DNA of 35,816 nucleotides from Candidatus Competibacteraceae bacterium (GTDB lineage: Bacteria > Pseudomonadota > Gammaproteobacteria > Competibacterales > Competibacteraceae): positions 1 through 35,816 of the forward strand of contig JAGRHQ010000013.1 in the NCBI GenBank assembly GCA_020444905.1. Direction: 5' to 3'. Shown piece after piece: positions 12,035 to 26,002 of this stretch. Below the pieces are notes generated by a model. The model saw only the letters and a program-made list of their open reading frames with translations. It was not told the DNA's origin and did not search any database. A program made the translations under genes and the position numbers. Each line of letters starts with the position of its first letter. Positions within the stretch are counted from its first letter, which is position 1.

Positions 12035-12916
12035 ATGCCGGAGAAGAGAGTGCAACGTAATCAACAGACAAATAGCGAGAGGGTCATCCTGATTACGGGT
12101 TGTTCTTCGGGCATTGGGTATTGTGTCGCTCATGGTCTGAAGACGCGCGGTTGGCGGGTATTCGCCACAGCCCGACAGGCAGCGGATGTCGAACGCTTGC
12201 AAGCGGAAGGGTTGGAAAGTGTATGTCTGGATGTGCGAGACGCCTTATCTATTCAGTCCGCGGTGACGGAAATCCTGGCGAGGACCGATGGCCGGTTGGA
12301 CGCGCTGTTTAACAATGCTGGCTACGGTCAACCCGGCGCGGTGGAGGATGTGAGTCGTGATGCGTTGCGTGAGCAGTTTGAGACCAATCTGTTCGGTGCG
12401 CTGGAAGTGACTAATCAGGTGATCCCGGTGATGCGCCGGCAGGGCGCAGGACAGATTCTGTACAATAGTTCAGTGTTGGGTTTAGTCGCATTTCCCTACC
12501 GGGGCGCTTACGTGGCCAGCAAGTTTGCGCTGGAGGGACTGGCGGATACCTTGCGTTTAGAGCTTGCGGGTACGGGCATTCATGTTTGCCTGATCGAGCC
12601 GGGACCGATTCTCAGCCGGTTTCGCGACAACGCCCATACGGCCTATCAGCGGCATATTCGCGCTGCGAATAGTCTACATCGTGAGAAATATGCCGCGATG
12701 GAGGCGCGCTTGCTCAAAGAAGGCCCCGCTGCGCCGTTCACGCTGCCACCGGAAGCGGTATTGAAGCGGGTGATTCATGCGCTGGAAAGTCCCCGACCTC
12801 GCGCCCGCTATCCGGTGACGACGCCAACATACCTGTTTGCCATCCTAAAGCGATGGTTGCCCACTGCAATGTTGGATGCGATTCTGCGGCGGGCGGGCGG
12901 CGAAGGACGGCGGTAG
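12035..12916 (+). CDS. Short-chain dehydrogenase/reductase (classical SDR)
   Basis: A 293-residue cytoplasmic NAD(P)-dependent oxidoreductase. The nucleotide-binding motif TGCSSGIG is near residues 22-29, the NNAG motif is FNNAGYG near 90, the catalytic Ser lies in LYNSSVLG near 145 and the Tyr-Lys pair in YVASKFALEG near 158-162. The LRLELAGTGIHVCLIEPGPI segment and length resemble the SDR group of retinol/steroid-dehydrogenase-like proteins, but the substrate is unknown. ATG 12035 has AGG directly against it, which is too close; GTG 12050 has GGAG six bases upstream and may be the true start. It is divergent from pstS and its upstream region is occupied by the Pho box, so phosphate control is possible. 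Confidence 0.9.
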   Translation: MPEKRVQRNQQTNSERVILITGCSSGIGYCVAHGLKTRGWRVFATARQAADVERLQAEGLESVCLDVRDALSIQSAVTEILARTDGRLDALFNNAGYGQPGAVEDVSRDALREQFETNLFGALEVTNQVIPVMRRQGAGQILYNSSVLGLVAFPYRGAYVASKFALEGLADTLRLELAGTGIHVCLIEPGPILSRFRDNAHTAYQRHIRAANSLHREKYAAMEARLLKEGPAAPFTLPPEAVLKRVIHALESPRPRARYPVTTPTYLFAILKRWLPTAMLDAILRRAGGEGRR

Positions 12917-12935: not shown

Positions 12936-15146
12936 CTAAGGTTGCGCCAGAGCCTCCAGCACGGAACGCAATTCCAGCCACCACTGTTCCAGCGGCCGCC
13001 GGTTGGCGATATCGACCATATCCGGCATCTGCTTGATCGGGAATGTGGTCAGCTTGCCCTCGGCCAGACCGACGAAAGCGCCCGCCGCCCCGCCGCGCCC
13101 CAGTTCCCCGGTCAGGAAGTCGATGCAGTGGGCGGCCAGCCGGGTCGCCAGAATGCGATCGAACGGTGAGGGATTGCCGCCTTGTTGAACGTGGCCTAAC
13201 ACCGCCTGGCGCACGTCAAACAGGTGACTGCCTTCCTCTTCAAACAGCCGGGCCAGAAAATCGGTGGTGTATTGATCGTTGGCGTACTCGTTGCGAATCG
13301 TCAGGTAGAAGCGCCGCCCCTTGCCGAAGCTGTCGACCATGCGCTCCACATCGGCCTGCAAGTCCTTGAGCGTGATGCCCTCTTCAGGCAAATAAATCCG
13401 TTCCGCCCCGCTGGCCATCCCGCTCATCAACGCCAAATAACCACAATGCCGCCCCATGACCTCGACCACAAAACAACGCCGCGCCGCCATCGCCGATTGC
13501 TTGATGCGGTCGAGCGCCTCGACAATCACATTGAGCGCCGTATCAGCGCCGACGCTTAAATCCGATCCCGGCAGGTTGTTGTCGATGGTCGCCGGCAAAC
13601 AAATCATCGGCATCTTGAAGGCGGGATAACGCTCCCGCTCGCTGTGTAGCCAGTGTAGGACCTGATAGGCTTTCCAGCCGCCGATGACCAGCAGACCATC
13701 GACGCCGTGCGTCTCCAAAGCGCGCGCAACGGTGTAGAGTTGTTCCGTGGTCGGGGTTTGCCGACTGGCGCCCAGCTCCGCGCCGCCCAGCGCGGTCCAG
13801 CCTTCGACATCGCCCCAGGTGAGTTCTTCAATCCGTCCGTCGATCAAACCGCCAAAGCTGCCGCGCACCCCCAGCATGGTATGGCCGCGATCCCGGCCCA
13901 GGCGCACGGCGGCACGGGCGGCGGTGTTCATGCCCGGCGCCAGTCCGCCGCCATGCAATACCGCGATGCGGCGCGGGCGGTCCACGGGCGTCACGCTGGG
14001 CAACGCCTCGGCCATCGCCCGAAAGGTTTTGGTCATTTCGTTGAAACTACCGCCGCGTAGCTCCACGGCTTTGACGTAATCCTTTTCGGCAATAGTCCGG
14101 GCTACTGCGCGGGTTTGCTCGACGCATTGCATCAAGGGTAATCGCCTCACCCGGTTATAGCGTACCCCGATGAGTTGCGGTTCACTATCTGGAGTCGCGG
14201 CCAGAACTTCCTGAACCGCGGCGTGGCCAACCAGGGTGCTCATCCAGCGGTCATAAGCGCTGGGCGTGCCGCCGCGCTGGACATGCCCGAGGATCGTCAC
14301 GCGGGTATCTTCGCCCAGCCGCTCTTCCAGAACCTGGCGGATATAGTCGGCGCTGATCCGGTTGCCGGTCCGATCGGTGGCGCCTTCGGCTACCACCACA
14401 ATACTGTCGCGCCGACCCGCCGCCCGGCCATGACGCAACATCTCGCACATACGGTTTTCCCAGCCTTCCGCCGGCGGATATTCAGGGATAAGAACATAGT
14501 CAGCGCCGCCAGCAATAGCGCTGGTCAGCGCCAGGTAGCCGCAATGCCGGCCCATCACCTCGACCACGAAACTGCGCTGGTGGCTGGCGGCGGTGCTGGT
14601 CAGCGCGTCAATCGCTTCGATGATCCGGTGCAGGGCGGAATCGGCGCCGATGGTCATGTCGGTGCCGACCATATCGTTATCGATGGAGCCGACCAACCCG
14701 GCAATCATCAGCGCGGGATGGGCGCGGGCCGTCGCTTCGTCGATTTCGCCGGCTTGCACCAGTTCCGCCAACAGTTCCGGCCATTCCTGGCGAAACAGAT
14801 TCGCGCCGGTCAGGCTGCCGTCGCCACCGATGATCACCAGGCGGTCAATACCGCATTGGAGCAGATTGCGGGCGGCGCGTCGGCGGCCGTCCCGTTCCCG
14901 GAACGCGGGACAGCGGGCAGTGCCGATGATCGTACCGCCCCGGTGCAGGATGCTGCCAACATCATCCCAGGCGAGTTGACGGACGCGATCGCCGCCGTCC
15001 ACCATGCCTTGATAGCCTTCGTAGATGGCGTAAACGGCTGCGCCTTCGTGAATGGCGGCGCGAACCACCGCGCGAACGGCGGCGTTCATGCCCTGGGCGT
15101 CGCCACCGCTGGTCAGAACGCCAATGCTGATCTGAGAATGAGACAT
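12936..15146 (-). CDS. Two-domain (eukaryote-type) ATP-dependent 6-phosphofructokinase
   Basis: A 736-residue protein made of two fused phosphofructokinase domains; ordinary bacterial PfkA is about 320. It phosphorylates fructose 6-phosphate to the 1,6-bisphosphate. The N-terminal half (1-390) keeps the catalytic set: GVLTSGGDAQGMNAAVR, GTARC, IIGGDGSLTGA, GLVGSIDND with the catalytic Asp, VVEVMGRHCGYLA, VAEGATD and LGHVQRGGTPSAYDR. In the C-terminal half (about 395-736) GGDGS has become GGWKA, so it is probably regulatory, while PATIDNNLPGS, RRCFVVEVMGRHCG, the RNE of TIRNEYANDQYTTDF and LGHVQQGGNPSPFDR remain. The arrangement and wording follow animal PFK-1 closely. It converges with the SDR gene, 19 bases apart; its start at ATG 15146 lacks a strong Shine-Dalgarno. 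Confidence 0.95.
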   Translation of the reverse strand: MSHSQISIGVLTSGGDAQGMNAAVRAVVRAAIHEGAAVYAIYEGYQGMVDGGDRVRQLAWDDVGSILHRGGTIIGTARCPAFRERDGRRRAARNLLQCGIDRLVIIGGDGSLTGANLFRQEWPELLAELVQAGEIDEATARAHPALMIAGLVGSIDNDMVGTDMTIGADSALHRIIEAIDALTSTAASHQRSFVVEVMGRHCGYLALTSAIAGGADYVLIPEYPPAEGWENRMCEMLRHGRAAGRRDSIVVVAEGATDRTGNRISADYIRQVLEERLGEDTRVTILGHVQRGGTPSAYDRWMSTLVGHAAVQEVLAATPDSEPQLIGVRYNRVRRLPLMQCVEQTRAVARTIAEKDYVKAVELRGGSFNEMTKTFRAMAEALPSVTPVDRPRRIAVLHGGGLAPGMNTAARAAVRLGRDRGHTMLGVRGSFGGLIDGRIEELTWGDVEGWTALGGAELGASRQTPTTEQLYTVARALETHGVDGLLVIGGWKAYQVLHWLHSERERYPAFKMPMICLPATIDNNLPGSDLSVGADTALNVIVEALDRIKQSAMAARRCFVVEVMGRHCGYLALMSGMASGAERIYLPEEGITLKDLQADVERMVDSFGKGRRFYLTIRNEYANDQYTTDFLARLFEEEGSHLFDVRQAVLGHVQQGGNPSPFDRILATRLAAHCIDFLTGELGRGGAAGAFVGLAEGKLTTFPIKQMPDMVDIANRRPLEQWWLELRSVLEALAQP

Positions 15147-18605: not shown

Positions 18606-20267
18606 TTATTGCTCTGGCGGTTCAATTGTGATGCGGAATGTGCGGATGGTATCGCCTTCTACTACCGTGCATTGCGTGGTGACCGGCGCGGTGAAAGGCG
18701 GAGCGATATGGATTAAAGGAGATTCTGACGCCGGTTCCGGTTCCGGTTCCGGTTCCGGTTCCGGTTCCGGTTCCGGTTCCGGTTCCGGAGCCAGGTCAGG
18801 CGCAATGACCGGGAGCGTTGTGACTTCCGTGACCTCCGGTTTTTTCCCTGCAACCGGGGGTGTTCCGGTTTCCCCGGTCAACCCGCGCACACCAGCATTC
18901 GCTTCCATGCGCATACCGGGCGTAATCGTCGCAGCCACCAGAAAGAGATGTTCCTCAGTGACCGGCAATTCACGTTCGCGCAATGCTTCTTCCGCGATAG
19001 CCAGGCTGTCAGGCGCCTGTTCCAGTGGACTGCCAACGCAAGGCTCCAACTGCAATTGTTCAGTGGCGATTTTGACTACAGCGGGATCGGGTTGGTGCGG
19101 CGCGTGGCCGAAATAACCCAGGATAGAGCGCCCATAACCCGGATCGATCCGCGCCCAGCGCCCGTGCAATACATTACTCAGGGCCTGCGCCCAATAATGT
19201 TGGGCGCCGGGCATCGCGCTGGTCCAAGCGCCGCCGGTTTGCGCCACAATCGGAAATTCGGCCAGTACGTCAGCATAACGATCCAGAAGACCGGCGCTGG
19301 CCACACCCTCAAGCATGGCGGCGACTGCATCCCCCGGCAGAGGGAATTGAACCACCCGAGCGTCAGGCGCGGCGGCGACCGGATTCAAGGCATAGTCCCG
19401 AAGTCCGTCGATCAAGCCCTGTTCCAGGTCGTCGACCTTGCCAGGATCGATCTCCAACAAATAGCCGGTGTCCTTGAGCGCCTGCGTCATCGAACGCACA
19501 TCCGGTTGCGCAGCGCCGGAAGCGAGTGGCCGCACGGACAGGTCAATGCCATCCACGCCGCCGGCAATGCCCGCCATGTAACAAGCGACCGCCAGCGACG
19601 CCGTGTCGCAGGTGTGCATGGACAACGGAATCTCGGGGGGCAGGATTTTCTTCAAGCCCTTCGCTGTTTCATAGCAGGTGTGTGGAGTCGTTGTGCCGGT
19701 CGCGTCATGCATGCAAACAGAGTCAAAATGCAGGCCGGATTCCAGCAGCTTCTGCGCCAGACGCACATAGAATTCCGGGGTGTGCGCCTCATTGGAAGGG
19801 TAGGGTGTTCCCATCATCGCCAAGCACACTTGATGATGCAGTCCGGCATCGACGATCAGCTTGCCAGTCTTGACCAGATTGTCGACGTTATTCATGAAAT
19901 CGACATTGCGGACCATCGCAACGCCATGCTTTTTCAGCAACCGGGCCTGTATTTCCAACAGAGTAAGTCGCTGCGGAATCAGGGTCAGGCCACAGATTGA
20001 GCGGGTCAGAATTTGTATGCCAATATCTGGACCTGTCGCTTTGCGCACCTGCTGCATGTTGACGAACGGGTCCTCGCCTGCCTGGACATAGGGCGCCTGG
20101 TAATGACCGCCGTCAAACTCGATATGACGCACTCCCATTGCAACAGCGGCTTGCAAGGAGGAGAGCAGGTTTTTAACAGGAACCTGACCGCCGAACAGGC
20201 TTCGCAAGCCGTCGCTGAAAGCGGTCAATGTGACGTGAATATTTTTCGGAGTAGGGGCAAAGATCAT
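18606..20267 (-). CDS. OadA/pyruvate carboxylase subunit B-like protein without a biotin domain, atypical active site
   Basis: A 553-residue protein. Residues about 10-270 match the HMGL-like carboxyltransferase barrel and about 275-430 the PYC_OADA C-terminal domain (FPLPGDAVAAML, VLAEFPIVAQTGG, ALSNVLHGRW, GYFGHAPHQPDP). In oxaloacetate decarboxylase and pyruvate carboxylase this part moves CO2 between biotin and a keto acid. Here the first metal Asp is kept (FSDGLRSL for RDAHQSL) but the carbamylated Lys of KDMAG is His (MHDATG), the HTHDT pair is HTCDT and the catalytic Thr of SGGTSQP is Ala (ASGAAQP). The end is a (Pro-Glu)n linker and about 40 residues without a biotinylation MKM motif. 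GGGAG precedes ATG 20267; the OadG-like gene lies 16 bases upstream. The biochemical role is uncertain and may not involve biotin. Confidence 0.75.
   Translation of the reverse strand: MIFAPTPKNIHVTLTAFSDGLRSLFGGQVPVKNLLSSLQAAVAMGVRHIEFDGGHYQAPYVQAGEDPFVNMQQVRKATGPDIGIQILTRSICGLTLIPQRLTLLEIQARLLKKHGVAMVRNVDFMNNVDNLVKTGKLIVDAGLHHQVCLAMMGTPYPSNEAHTPEFYVRLAQKLLESGLHFDSVCMHDATGTTTPHTCYETAKGLKKILPPEIPLSMHTCDTASLAVACYMAGIAGGVDGIDLSVRPLASGAAQPDVRSMTQALKDTGYLLEIDPGKVDDLEQGLIDGLRDYALNPVAAAPDARVVQFPLPGDAVAAMLEGVASAGLLDRYADVLAEFPIVAQTGGAWTSAMPGAQHYWAQALSNVLHGRWARIDPGYGRSILGYFGHAPHQPDPAVVKIATEQLQLEPCVGSPLEQAPDSLAIAEEALRERELPVTEEHLFLVAATITPGMRMEANAGVRGLTGETGTPPVAGKKPEVTEVTTLPVIAPDLAPEPEPEPEPEPEPEPEPEPASESPLIHIAPPFTAPVTTQCTVVEGDTIRTFRITIEPPEQ
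18731..18788 (-). repeat. Hexanucleotide tandem repeat encoding (Pro-Glu)n
   Basis: The unit CCGGTT is repeated nine times perfectly and ends with CCGG (58 bases). It is in frame inside the OadA-like gene and encodes an alternating Pro-Glu linker. Slippage by whole units would change linker length without breaking the frame. Confidence 0.95.
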
Positions 20268-20283
20268 GGTGACTCCCTCTGAT

Positions 20284-20538
20284 TTAGAGTTTTTCTTCGA
20301 TTTGGGTAACCCGCGCGCCGGGAGTAATAGCGTTGACAGCGGAAGCGATGGCGACCGCGACCGCCGCGTCGATGGTCGGTGGTTGCGCTGGCGCAGCGGC
20401 AGCTCTGCCCGCCAGGGGTGGCTCTTCCGGCACAGGCGGTTTCACTAACTCGCGCCAAGCGCTGGTTCGCCTGACGAACGGAACAATAACTGCTGCCAGG
20501 ATGCCGAAACAGATCAACAGAACAAGCAAATTTTCCAT
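20284..20538 (-). CDS. Small OadG-like membrane protein (decarboxylase gamma/delta subunit type)
   Basis: An 84-residue protein starting at ATG 20538, with AGGA about eight bases upstream; an in-frame start at 20574 is less supported. One membrane segment (LLVLLICFGILAAVIVPFV, residues 4-22) is followed by a Pro/Ala-rich linker and a short C-terminal segment (TIDAAVAVAIASAVNAITPG) that resembles the AAVAAA helix of OadG and methylmalonyl-CoA decarboxylase delta subunits. Such subunits anchor the carboxyltransferase subunit to the membrane complex. It is 16 bases upstream of the OadA-like gene, which fits that role. The assignment rests on context and pattern because these subunits are poorly conserved; no beta (sodium pump) subunit is present in the window. 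Confidence 0.6.
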   Translation of the reverse strand: MENLLVLLICFGILAAVIVPFVRRTSAWRELVKPPVPEEPPLAGRAAAAPAQPPTIDAAVAVAIASAVNAITPGARVTQIEEKL

Positions 20539-22214: not shown

Positions 22215-23117
22215 TTATTTCGGTGGTTCGACGCCCATTTCCCGCAGTCGCGCCATGAGTTGTGCGACTTGCTGTTCCGCCTGGTTGGCGCGTTGACGCT
22301 CCTGCTCGGCGCGTTGACGCTCCTGCTCGGCGCGTTGACGCTCCTGCTCGGCTTGGCTCTCAGCATTCAGGGCGCGCTGGCGTTCCTGCTCAGTGTGCTG
22401 CTCGGCGGTCAGGATGCGTTGACGCTCCTGCTCGGCGTGCTCGGTCCGGGTCGGAATCAGCCGTCCAGTTGTGTCAGTCCAACGCAACCATAACGCTTCC
22501 ATTTCCTCATATTCTCCCTGCCATAAGCGCAGACCCAAACCAGCTCCCTGCAACACCCCCCCTGCCTGTTCCAAATAGCCCTGACCCGTCAGTTGATAGA
22601 TACGCAACACCCGGTTGGACAGTTGCCGCCAGGGATCGAAAATCACGTAATACTCCACCCGGGCGGTGGCGTACTTGCGCAATTTTTCGCTGTCTTCGCC
22701 ACCCTCGCGGTTCGAAACCACTTCGATAGCCACGACCGGTGGTTTGCCGCCCTGCTTCCAGATGAAGTAGGAGCGATTGGCTTTCAGGCTGAGGTCGGCG
22801 CCGGGACCGGGCACATCCAGGGCCAGCATCATGTCGGGAACCAGAGGCGGTTCGCGCAGCGCGTAAAACAGGCCGACATTGGCCAGCGCCAGAAAACGGC
22901 GATGTCCCGGCGTACACTGGGCAGGTCCCGGCCAAGCGCCGTAGAGGGGTTCAGTCAGCAGACGTTGCTGTTTTTCCGACAGGATATTGTCCACGGGCGT
23001 GTCGTCCTCGGTGACCAGATTTTCCATTTCGCGCTCGATATCCGCACCGATTTCCGCCAGTTCCTGTTCCCAGTTCGGCGCCTGCCCGGTTTCGCGGGGA
23101 TTGATGGTTGCGTTCAT
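22215..23117 (-). CDS. Uma2-family (DUF820) nuclease-fold protein with C-terminal coiled coil
   Basis: A 300-residue protein. Residues about 60-200 match the Uma2/DUF820 restriction-endonuclease-like fold: PDMMLALD supplies the Asp, VVAIEVVSNREGG the Glu and SEKLRKYATARVEYYVIFDP the Lys and following strand. The last roughly 90 residues are a long Glu/Gln/Arg coiled coil built from 7-residue EQERQRA units, partly encoded by perfect 21-base repeats. The family is multi-copy in cyanobacteria and some gammaproteobacteria, and its function is not settled. It lies 40 bases downstream of the MmeI-type gene and is probably co-transcribed with it. Confidence 0.85.
   Translation of the reverse strand: MNATINPRETGQAPNWEQELAEIGADIEREMENLVTEDDTPVDNILSEKQQRLLTEPLYGAWPGPAQCTPGHRRFLALANVGLFYALREPPLVPDMMLALDVPGPGADLSLKANRSYFIWKQGGKPPVVAIEVVSNREGGEDSEKLRKYATARVEYYVIFDPWRQLSNRVLRIYQLTGQGYLEQAGGVLQGAGLGLRLWQGEYEEMEALWLRWTDTTGRLIPTRTEHAEQERQRILTAEQHTEQERQRALNAESQAEQERQRAEQERQRAEQERQRANQAEQQVAQLMARLREMGVEPPK
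22290..22352 (-). repeat. Three perfect 21-bp tandem repeats encoding coiled-coil heptads
   Basis: A 21-base unit beginning GCGTTGACGCTCCTGC is repeated at 22290, 22311 and 22332 without change, with diverged copies up to about 22440. Each unit encodes one heptad (EQERQRA) of the Uma2 protein coiled coil. Confidence 0.92.
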
Positions 23118-23157: not shown

Positions 23158-25986
23158 TTACACCCGTGCCCGATTCAATTCCAGCAACCGGCGCAGGATT
23201 TCCGCGTCACTCAGGTCGGCAGGCCAGCCGTAGGCCATCGCCACGGCTTCATCCAGCGCCCGGTGGACGTGATCGAGCCAGGCCGGACGCTGGTTGTAGA
23301 GGTTCGTCAAGGTGCGCTTTTTGAGTTCAGCGGCGTGTTCGGGTTTGGGGATGATGCGGTCGGGATAGCCGGGGACGACTTCGGGAATCCGGTCAACCCA
23401 TTGCGGAGGATTCAGCCAGTTCTCGCGCAGTTCATTCAGTTTGCGGGCGGCTTCAGCAATGGCCTGGGCGCGAGGATCGCTGGCGTAGTCTGTCGCTGAA
23501 ATGTTCGGAGTCAGGCCCTCGGGGAATGGGAAGGTCTCGAAACAGCGTGTCGAGTTATAAACCGGGTCGTTACCAACTCCCAATCTGCCACCCAGTGCTG
23601 TTGCCCATACGACATGAAAACGCGATGACAAAATGCCAAAAATTTCATCGTCATCACAGGCAATCACAACCAGTTTATGTTCCGGTGCGACACTGACCGG
23701 CAACCAGATGAAAATCCGGTGCTTGGCCGTTTCTGATGTAGCGATATAGCGCGTTAATCCGGCCAGCTTTCGACGCAACTCTGGGCGTGGGCGACCATGC
23801 CGCCACCAGTAAGCCACTCGCGATTTCTCACGATTGCTCATCCGCACCGGCTTGATCTTATCCACCACATGCGTAAATGGCGCTTCGTAAAAGGCTGCTT
23901 CACGCTCGCCCAGATCGGTTCCAAAGTCGATCACCCACCGGCCTTTCCAACCCTGGGTCACATCGACGCCGTTCCAGATCGGGCGCAGAACGTCGCTGTT
24001 GGGGCGGCCATGCGGATTGGGTTGCTGGAGCCAGTGGCGCGCGGTGTGACTGTCCACGGCAAACGCCCCGGCCAGACACAGGCCAAAGAACGAATAACCG
24101 GCGTTTTCGGGCAACGGACGGGCTTGCGTCAAATCCAGCGCGCCGTCGATCTCGCTTGCTCCGGTCAGGTCGGCATGAATCATGGTGACCGGTTGACCAT
24201 TCAAAATCCCCCCGGCTTCGCCACCCCTTCCAAAACACACCAGCGACACCCGAACGGCAGCCCCTTCGTTGATCCATTCCAGATCAGACCAGGCGTGGAA
24301 AATGACGCCACTCGCTCGAATACGCTCCAGAACCGGCCGGTTGCGTTTCTGACGAATCGAATTCGTCGCCACCAGTCCCGCTCGCTGCGATGGTCCCGTT
24401 TCAATCTGCGCTCGCGCCTTCTCGAACCAGTAGCACACCAAATCAGCGCCGCCCGGCACTCGTCCCGCATAAACCTGGCGCAGCCGGGTCATGTAGTCTT
24501 CGCCCAGGATCGCTAACTGGCGCTTATCGCCCAGAAACGGCGGATTGCCGACAATGGCATTGGCTTCAGGCCAGGTTGCCTCGTGGTCGCCCTCCAGCAA
24601 TGCATCCCGGCACTCAATATGCTGCAACGGTTTCAGAATCGGCTGATCATTCAGGCTGTAGCCATGCCCCAGCATCCATTGAATCTCGCCGATCCACACC
24701 GTCAATCGCGCCAGTTCCGCTGCATACGGATTGATTTCGATGCCCAGCACCGTTTCCGGGCCGACGCTGGGAAAGCCGCGTTGCAGGCCCAGCGTCTCCG
24801 CCTCCAGCATCACCTGATGTTCGATATCCTTGAGCGTGCGCAGCGCCAGATAAAGGAAATTGCCCGACCCACAAGCCGGATCGAGAACCCGGAAGATGCG
24901 CAACCGCTCCAGGAACCTCTGGAGCGCCTGTTCCGCTAACGTCCGTTTGGGCTTCTTCGCGCTCAGCCACCGTTCCATCTCCCCCTTGACCGTGGCCCAT
25001 TCCGCCAGCAGCGGGTCGCGGATCACCGGCTCGATCAGCCGGCGGATCGAGGCGGCGTCGGTGTAATGCGCGCCCAGTTGACTGCGCTTGTTCGGGTCCA
25101 GACCGCGCTCAAACAGCGTCCCGAAGATGGCCGGTTCAATCGCTGACCAGTCCAGCGCCGCCGCCGAATGCAGGGTGTCCAGGTCGGCCCGTTCCAGCGG
25201 CAGACAATGATCGTCGTCGAACAAGCCGCCATTGAACCAGGCGATCCGCGCCAGACCAAATCGCCCGCCCTGATGCATGGCGCGGAACAGTTCACGAGCC
25301 AGACCGGGAAACTCGTCGGGAGTGCGCCTTGCTTCCTCCAGCACCTGGCTGAACAACCGCTCGGGCAACAGGCCAATATCTTCAGCAAACAGGCAGAACA
25401 GCAGGCGGGTCATGAAATGGGCGACGGGTTGCGGATCATGCCCCCGCTGGCGCAGAGCCTGAGCCAGACCGCCCAGCAGGCGGGCGGCGTCCTGCGTGAC
25501 CCCTTCCCGCGTCCGGGTTGGCTGGAGACGCTGCGGTTCCGTGAACGCCCATTTCAGCTTCTGAAATCGGGCCGGGTCGGCCAGATCAGGCAGGCTCAGC
25601 CGATGAACGACGTTGACCGTATTGGAAAAATTGGTGTGAATTTCAATCGTCGCCATGTCGGAGACGATCAGGAGTTGCGGATTGTCCAGAGCCAGGGCGT
25701 ATTGCTGCAACTGCCGCAACGCCGCGTCCAGGTCTTTGTGCTTGCCCTTGTACTCCCAGGCGAAACAACCGCGTCGCCAGACATCGGCCCAGCCCTTGCC
25801 GCCGCCGGTTTTGGTGACCCCCTTCTCGAAGGTGAACCACTCGCCTCTGGGATCGGCGACGGACGGACGCGCTATGTCCAACAGGTCGCACAACTCATTG
25901 AAATGGGACTGCGCCCCGCTGCGTTCCGACAGGGTGCTGTCTTGCCAGCGTTGAATGAACGAGGTCAGGGCGGCGGGCGTAGTCAT
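23158..25986 (-). CDS. MmeI-type (type IIL) combined restriction endonuclease / adenine-N6 DNA methyltransferase
   Basis: A 942-residue single-chain restriction-modification protein. The N-terminal nuclease motif is D68, E78 and K80 (GWADVWRRGCFAWEYKG), the D-x9-E-x-K spacing of MmeI. A helical connector follows, then a methyltransferase with SAM motif VLDPACGSGNFLYLA near residue 372 and catalytic NPPF near 480 (gamma-class N6-adenine). The remainder, including IRQKRNRPVLERI and the segment after residue 600, corresponds to the target-recognition region. In this family one protein cuts about 20 bases from its site and modifies one strand for self protection. ATG 25986 was chosen; a TTG at 26001 lies inside the ssrA terminator. 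All motifs are intact. The gene starts 55 bases beyond ssrA. Confidence 0.9.
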   Translation of the reverse strand: MTTPAALTSFIQRWQDSTLSERSGAQSHFNELCDLLDIARPSVADPRGEWFTFEKGVTKTGGGKGWADVWRRGCFAWEYKGKHKDLDAALRQLQQYALALDNPQLLIVSDMATIEIHTNFSNTVNVVHRLSLPDLADPARFQKLKWAFTEPQRLQPTRTREGVTQDAARLLGGLAQALRQRGHDPQPVAHFMTRLLFCLFAEDIGLLPERLFSQVLEEARRTPDEFPGLARELFRAMHQGGRFGLARIAWFNGGLFDDDHCLPLERADLDTLHSAAALDWSAIEPAIFGTLFERGLDPNKRSQLGAHYTDAASIRRLIEPVIRDPLLAEWATVKGEMERWLSAKKPKRTLAEQALQRFLERLRIFRVLDPACGSGNFLYLALRTLKDIEHQVMLEAETLGLQRGFPSVGPETVLGIEINPYAAELARLTVWIGEIQWMLGHGYSLNDQPILKPLQHIECRDALLEGDHEATWPEANAIVGNPPFLGDKRQLAILGEDYMTRLRQVYAGRVPGGADLVCYWFEKARAQIETGPSQRAGLVATNSIRQKRNRPVLERIRASGVIFHAWSDLEWINEGAAVRVSLVCFGRGGEAGGILNGQPVTMIHADLTGASEIDGALDLTQARPLPENAGYSFFGLCLAGAFAVDSHTARHWLQQPNPHGRPNSDVLRPIWNGVDVTQGWKGRWVIDFGTDLGEREAAFYEAPFTHVVDKIKPVRMSNREKSRVAYWWRHGRPRPELRRKLAGLTRYIATSETAKHRIFIWLPVSVAPEHKLVVIACDDDEIFGILSSRFHVVWATALGGRLGVGNDPVYNSTRCFETFPFPEGLTPNISATDYASDPRAQAIAEAARKLNELRENWLNPPQWVDRIPEVVPGYPDRIIPKPEHAAELKKRTLTNLYNQRPAWLDHVHRALDEAVAMAYGWPADLSDAEILRRLLELNRARV

Positions 25987-26002
25987 GGGGCGGCGTTCCA
26001 AG

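Follow-up and report, generated by a model that had tools for sequence, protein, structure and literature searches.

The window, the whole stretch of 35,816 nucleotides that was analysed, harbours the remains of a Na+-pumping oxaloacetate decarboxylase (OAD), and it is probable, at roughly two chances in three, that this pump relic has been retained as a membrane-tethered, non-catalytic alpha-gamma pseudoenzyme. Both genomes that carry the truncated OadA have it undisrupted, and strong purifying selection acts on it in each, strongest in the association hairpin. It represents a degenerate lineage of a known pump rather than a new family; its homology, synteny and losses are established by computation, as are the purifying selection and a constraint that has shifted to the association hairpin. 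The features of the locus are as follows.

20267..18606, minus strand: truncated OadA-like gene P0001, ATG start, 553 aa, OadA/transcarboxylase-type barrel and PYC_OADA domain
20538..20284, minus strand: OadG-like (gamma) subunit ORF, 84 aa, from homology search (phmmer) and alignment
19368..20267, minus strand: carboxyltransferase TIM barrel, residues 1-300, from alignment, the confident model barrel and Foldseek to 1rqh/2nx9
18882..19367, minus strand: PYC_OADA domain, residues ~301-462, Pfam PF02436
18702..18842, minus strand: predicted disordered linker, residues 476-522, pLDDT <50, with a (Pro-Glu)n run
18615..18680, minus strand: association domain (gamma-binding beta hairpin), residues 530-551, TTQCTVVEGDTIRTFRITIEPP, from alignment and model, its role from PMC2881705 and PMC7274780
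15329..18481, minus strand: DUF4214 / alpha-beta hydrolase / FGE-sulfatase protein, 1050 aa, at the place of oadB in syntenic loci
12936..15146, minus strand: double-domain phosphofructokinase-like gene, the syntenic anchor beside oadB in working operons
12035-12916: SDR gene, beside the phosphofructokinase gene

The ATG of the OadA-like gene is preceded at 5 bases by the ribosome-binding-like AGAGGGAG, and the OadG-like ORF ends 16 bases upstream of the gene. A Pfam search with the 553-aa protein revealed PYC_OADA with 42.7 bits and HMGL-like with 34.9 bits, each above its cut-off, and no match to Biotin_lipoyl. With TIGR01108, the curated OadA model, it scores 141 bits against a cut-off of 756.5, and a working relative (268 bits) also falls under this cut-off. 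Going by sequence, its closest relatives of solved structure are transcarboxylase 5S, V. cholerae OadA and pyruvate carboxylase. An AlphaFold model (input alignment of 25 sequences, mean pLDDT 83.9, pTM 0.81) contains a complete barrel, the PYC_OADA helices, disorder at 476-522 and, at the C-terminal end, a hairpin predicted with confidence (529-548), and when run through Foldseek it gave 1rqh (5S) as the top match (TM to target 0.84), with 2nx9 (OadA) at 0.86. The barrel and PYC_OADA domain of an alpha subunit are thus found by Pfam, sequence, model and Foldseek alike, and the original prediction, made from the letters of the window, was right in outline that they are kept.

The same prediction held that the C-terminal biotinyl domain is missing, and no such domain with its EAMK motif could be identified: the ORF ends 2 residues past the association hairpin and no biotin-domain remnant was seen downstream of the ORF in three frames, neither in the genome of the window (G000) nor in G003, which like G004 and G005 belongs to the same genus. 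It was overlooked, on the other hand, that the C-terminal tail is itself the gamma-binding association domain; the homologous hairpin is kept and predicted to be ordered, and in working homologues it is located just before the biotin domain. In the linker upstream of it the (Pro-Glu)n run is encoded by 9.7 copies of a 6-base repeat, a perfect tandem array of the unit CCGGTT at 18731-18788, and this array is almost absent in G003, so linker length may vary quickly.

The OadG-like protein, which the original prediction had placed upstream, proved to be homologous, in position as well as in sequence, to the gene that precedes oadA in working operons of the oadGAB type. It is a short protein composed of an N-terminal part with what looks from the sequence alone like a single membrane helix, a linker and a C-terminal alpha-binding helix AVAVAIASAVNAITPGARVTQIEE, and its phmmer homologues lie directly before oadA in 13 other Competibacteraceae loci. 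Pfam OAD_gamma gave no match at E<=1 for this protein, nor for the gamma genes of the working operons of this group. When aligned, the C-terminal alpha-binding helix is kept and the membrane half has diverged, also at the place of GALRGLIELFPE, a membrane-half motif of other Competibacteraceae OadG proteins; pairwise dN/dS is about 0.22 in the C-terminal part and 0.27 in the N-terminal part, both from few codons. In known enzymes the gamma C-terminal tail binds the association domain of alpha (PMC7274780, PMC2881705), and in the Salmonella OAD gamma interacts extensively with beta (PMC7274780), for which reason divergence of the membrane half is the release expected from loss of OadB.

Genes 61-73% identical to the window OadA were found in the genome search only in the family of the window, and named records for them come from Ca. 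Contendobacter odensis, Ca. Competibacter phosphatis and further Competibacteraceae, among others. Over shared length the window protein is 54-68% identical to working homologues. The working version is present in Competibacteraceae of four other genera (g5, g9, g10 and g12), where the intact OadA proteins of 619-648 aa carry the motifs FRDGLQS, MKDASG (MKDSSG in two), MHTHDT and ASGT[SA]Q, a biotin domain with EAMKA and all of the residues K, H, H, T, R, D and Q, and also in other phyla; operons of this type, whose OadA is 65-73% identical to that of C. odensis, are present in bins of Verrucomicrobia, Krumholzibacteriia, Planctomycetota, Calditrichaeota and Holophagales. In every locus of sufficient length oadG, oadA and oadB are consecutive, and OadB of the working operon matches OAD_beta with 483 bits (Pfam). 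A contig search with the window protein alone as query gave no match; the functional relatives were recovered with an alignment as query. In the tree G000 and G003 share a long stem among Competibacteraceae sequences, with moderate support.

These loci (L097-L112 and L043-L052) constitute a divergent oadGAB operon type, spanning Competibacteraceae and genomes binned to several other phyla, in which most members have EAMKA in place of EAMKM at the biotin site, OadA falls far under the NCBIfam OadA cut-off and the gamma subunits lack a Pfam match. Compared with this operon (L097-L112), the window shares the OadG C-terminal helix, the association hairpin and, in some genera, the same chromosomal place, but lacks oadB, the biotin domain and five out of seven catalytic residues. 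Identity to classical OadA from the same bacterial class is only about 25%, for the window protein as for its working relatives; with V. cholerae OadA (2nx9) the window has in common the barrel and PYC_OADA fold, the Pro-rich linker, the association domain and a paired gamma gene, but has Lys, metal His, Thr, Arg and Gln replaced and neither biotin domain nor beta subunit. Transcarboxylase 5S (P. shermanii, 1rqh), the best fold match, is likewise without a biotin domain of its own; it retains the catalytic Lys together with the two metal His, relies on a biotin carrier that is a protein of its own and has no OadG partner. As a separate observation, the oadA of Ca. Competibacter phosphatis SBR_G (L049:7732-9744, also L115) runs out of frame across the linker and association hairpin and the frame is restored before the biotin domain, two compensating indels which are possibly assembly errors.

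When comparing gene order, C. odensis (L048) has SDR, phosphofructokinase, oadB, oadA and oadG, and the window has SDR, phosphofructokinase, the hydrolase/FGE gene, truncated oadA and oadG. The window locus is therefore a syntenic, decayed form of the complete oadG-oadA-oadB operon, and the canonical homologues at the same chromosomal place, with active site and biotin domain in sister genera, were overlooked when a distinct family was proposed, a proposal that does not stand, since canonical homologues at this locus are what had been named beforehand as refuting it. For the 1050-aa protein at the place of oadB, a full-length paralogue (77% identical) lies on contig C520 of G000, and the six relatives searched gave no full-length match; the protein is probably unrelated in function. 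The contig is syntenic on the phosphofructokinase side and G003 has the same truncation independently, which makes a chimeric assembly unlikely.

A genome-wide search found no oadB orthologue in G000. Its sole OAD_beta gene is of the mmd type and is located on contig C111, where a carboxyl-transferase (PF01039) and a biotin carrier are its neighbours, which agrees with the earlier remark that neither a beta subunit nor a biotin carrier is nearby, as none was found in the window; in G003, which is 96% complete, no OAD_beta homologue was found. An intact paralogue elsewhere was rejected, as besides this gene G000 has no PYC_OADA match and G003 no match at all. In G004 and G017 the operon is missing and the phosphofructokinase gene directly adjoins the next conserved gene, and since G005 also has no window-type OadA gene, the truncated OadA is dispensable within the genus (G004, G005). 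G005, without an oadGAB operon, does contain a second kind of OAD beta, 51% identical (G005:C54:26612-27736, L124), and similar beta subunits are found in G017, G024 and G033.

The truncated OadA is known from two genomes only, G000 and G003, of which at least the latter is a metagenome assembly. The two proteins are 74% identical, contain no stop or frameshift and both end at PPE, at nearly the same residue but with different stop codons, so that the truncation appears, from the sequences, to be shared. Since Cys220 (see below) and the PPE end are common to both, the losses probably predate the split of G000 and G003. The flanks differ between the two genomes and no partner gene is conserved beside the OadA-OadG pair; the G003 contig stops about 250 bases past the gene.

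To describe the active site, seven columns invariant in 16 functional relatives were scored (R18, D19, Q22, K187, H218, H220 and T252, window numbering), chosen as catalytic on the basis of what is established for OadA, 5S and pyruvate carboxylase. In the window protein D19 and H218 are kept and five residues are replaced, R18S, Q22R, K187H, H220C and T252A; of the catalytic Lys, the Asp and two His metal ligands and the Thr of an alpha subunit only D19 and H218 remain. The alignment thereby bears out the earlier reading of His for the Lys (MHDATG), Cys for the second metal His (HTCDT) and Ala for the Thr (SGAAQP), a list that had left out Arg18 and Gln22. Read in the order above, the seven columns are S, D, R, H, H, C, A in G000 and C, E, Q, N, H, C, I in G003, five of seven changed in each, compared with 40/200 (20%) and 35/200 (17.5%) of the other invariant columns, an excess at the catalytic columns with Fisher p = 0.006 (G000) and 0.003 (G003). 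The Lys187 codon AAA has become AAT in G003 and CAT in G000, as a Lys-to-Asn step common to both carriers would allow. The PGGAIGPN motif of working relatives is eroded in the PYC_OADA domain of the window. The role of Lys178 and of the zinc site in OAD alpha has been described (PMC2881705).

Selection was analysed with a custom-written branch codon model (GY94-type, F3x4), which by maximum likelihood gave an omega of 0.052 in working lineages, 0.13 on the stem and 0.145 on the two truncated tips. When the tips were forced to omega 1, lnL fell from -7211.4 to -7322.4, a loss of 111 units (2 delta lnL = 222). Taken singly, omega is 0.24 for G000 and 0.087 for G003, significantly below 1 by 6.6 and 25.9 lnL units, and part of the G000 branch may be relaxed. 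By region, omega on the truncated tips is 0.13 in the barrel, 0.17 in PYC_OADA and 0.012 in the association hairpin (the last estimate based on 22 codons), compared with 0.050, 0.054 and 0.061 in working lineages; constraint is down about threefold in the catalytic part of the tips but not in the hairpin, where G000 and G003 differ by 10 synonymous and 1 non-synonymous codon changes.

The main rival is a pseudogene in early decay, in which function would have gone with oadB and the biotin domain and the gene would merely be undisrupted so far. The loss of the pump partner, the eroded catalytic residues and PGGAIGPN motif, an evolution faster than in working homologues and the absence of the gene in G004 and G005 all agree with such decay, but an omega of 0.145 on both tips is far from 1, the frame is open in two species only 74% identical and the hairpin is under more constraint than in working enzymes, which makes this explanation unlikely.

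A neofunctionalised enzyme, in which Asp/Glu19, His218 and Cys220 with His/Asn187 would bind another metal or perform another lyase reaction, appears more doubtful still. Several lyase chemistries are known from the HMGL-like fold, purifying selection acts on the barrel and both carriers have an Asp/Glu-His-Cys triad that could hold zinc, but positions 18, 19, 22, 187 and 252 differ between the carriers, unlike a conserved new site, and the strongest constraint lies outside the barrel. The new metal chemistry once suggested for the His/Cys/Ala set finds no support here; the set is not conserved across the clade, the only other member of the lineage having Asn/Cys/Ile together with D19E and R18C, and because G003 has Asn at the Lys and Ile at the Thr there is no conserved new catalytic set. 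That the gene still encodes a working decarboxylase component, borrowing the biotin carrier and beta subunit of the mmd-type cluster with its carboxyltransferase on contig C111 of G000, is highly improbable and was rejected, as the protein no longer has the catalytic Lys, the second metal His or the Thr, and G003 carries the gene without any OAD_beta homologue.

The reading as a retained pseudoenzyme would start from a complete oadG-oadA-oadB operon, from which oadB and the biotinyl domain of OadA would have been lost in the ancestor of the carriers in this genus. Because of these two losses carboxyl transfer and sodium pumping should be impossible, and we infer that the protein is without activity. 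The active site would have eroded, and the remaining OadA and OadG would have been kept as a membrane-tethered complex, the OadA barrel being joined through the association hairpin to the C-terminal helix of OadG, with the membrane segment of OadG as the putative anchor. Since two related bacteria have it undisrupted, the truncated OadA probably has a new, non-enzymatic job at the membrane, most likely that of a pseudoenzyme which might, for example, act as a scaffold or regulator docking a protein or small ligand there. Of the two options first offered for this gene, the non-catalytic scaffold is the better one and fits the selection pattern.

Like described pseudoenzymes (PMC10211241) the window protein combines a conserved fold with lost catalytic motifs and retention by selection; by homology it belongs to an enzyme family whose catalytic residues it has lost, and it is under purifying selection. 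A limited literature search found nothing on OAD pseudoenzymes or on OAD in Competibacter. To our knowledge, no pseudoenzyme built on the alpha-gamma pair of OAD has been described. It is conceivable, if rather unlikely, that the alpha-gamma half of the decarboxylase sodium pump has become a new membrane-anchored protein with a function of its own, as a metabolite sensor, a docking platform or an Asp/Glu-His-Cys metal enzyme, and such reuse would be an example of a primary ion pump dismantled and its soluble part repurposed. The locus resembles a natural separation experiment, in which the alpha-gamma contact is kept while selection has let go of the catalytic site and of the membrane segment presumed to face beta. 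If a function were found, this would be a pseudoenzyme that arose from a biotin-dependent ion pump, and it would tell the parts of OAD that serve assembly from those that serve catalysis. An annotation of the window gene as pyruvate carboxylase subunit B / OadA would be wrong in flux models of these bacteria.

Elsewhere in the window, positions 23158-26001 encode a protein of 947 aa that contains an NPPF motif and looks, by eye, like a large DNA methyltransferase of the restriction type, and adjoining it is a Uma2-like ORF with a heptad-repeat tail at 22215-23117.
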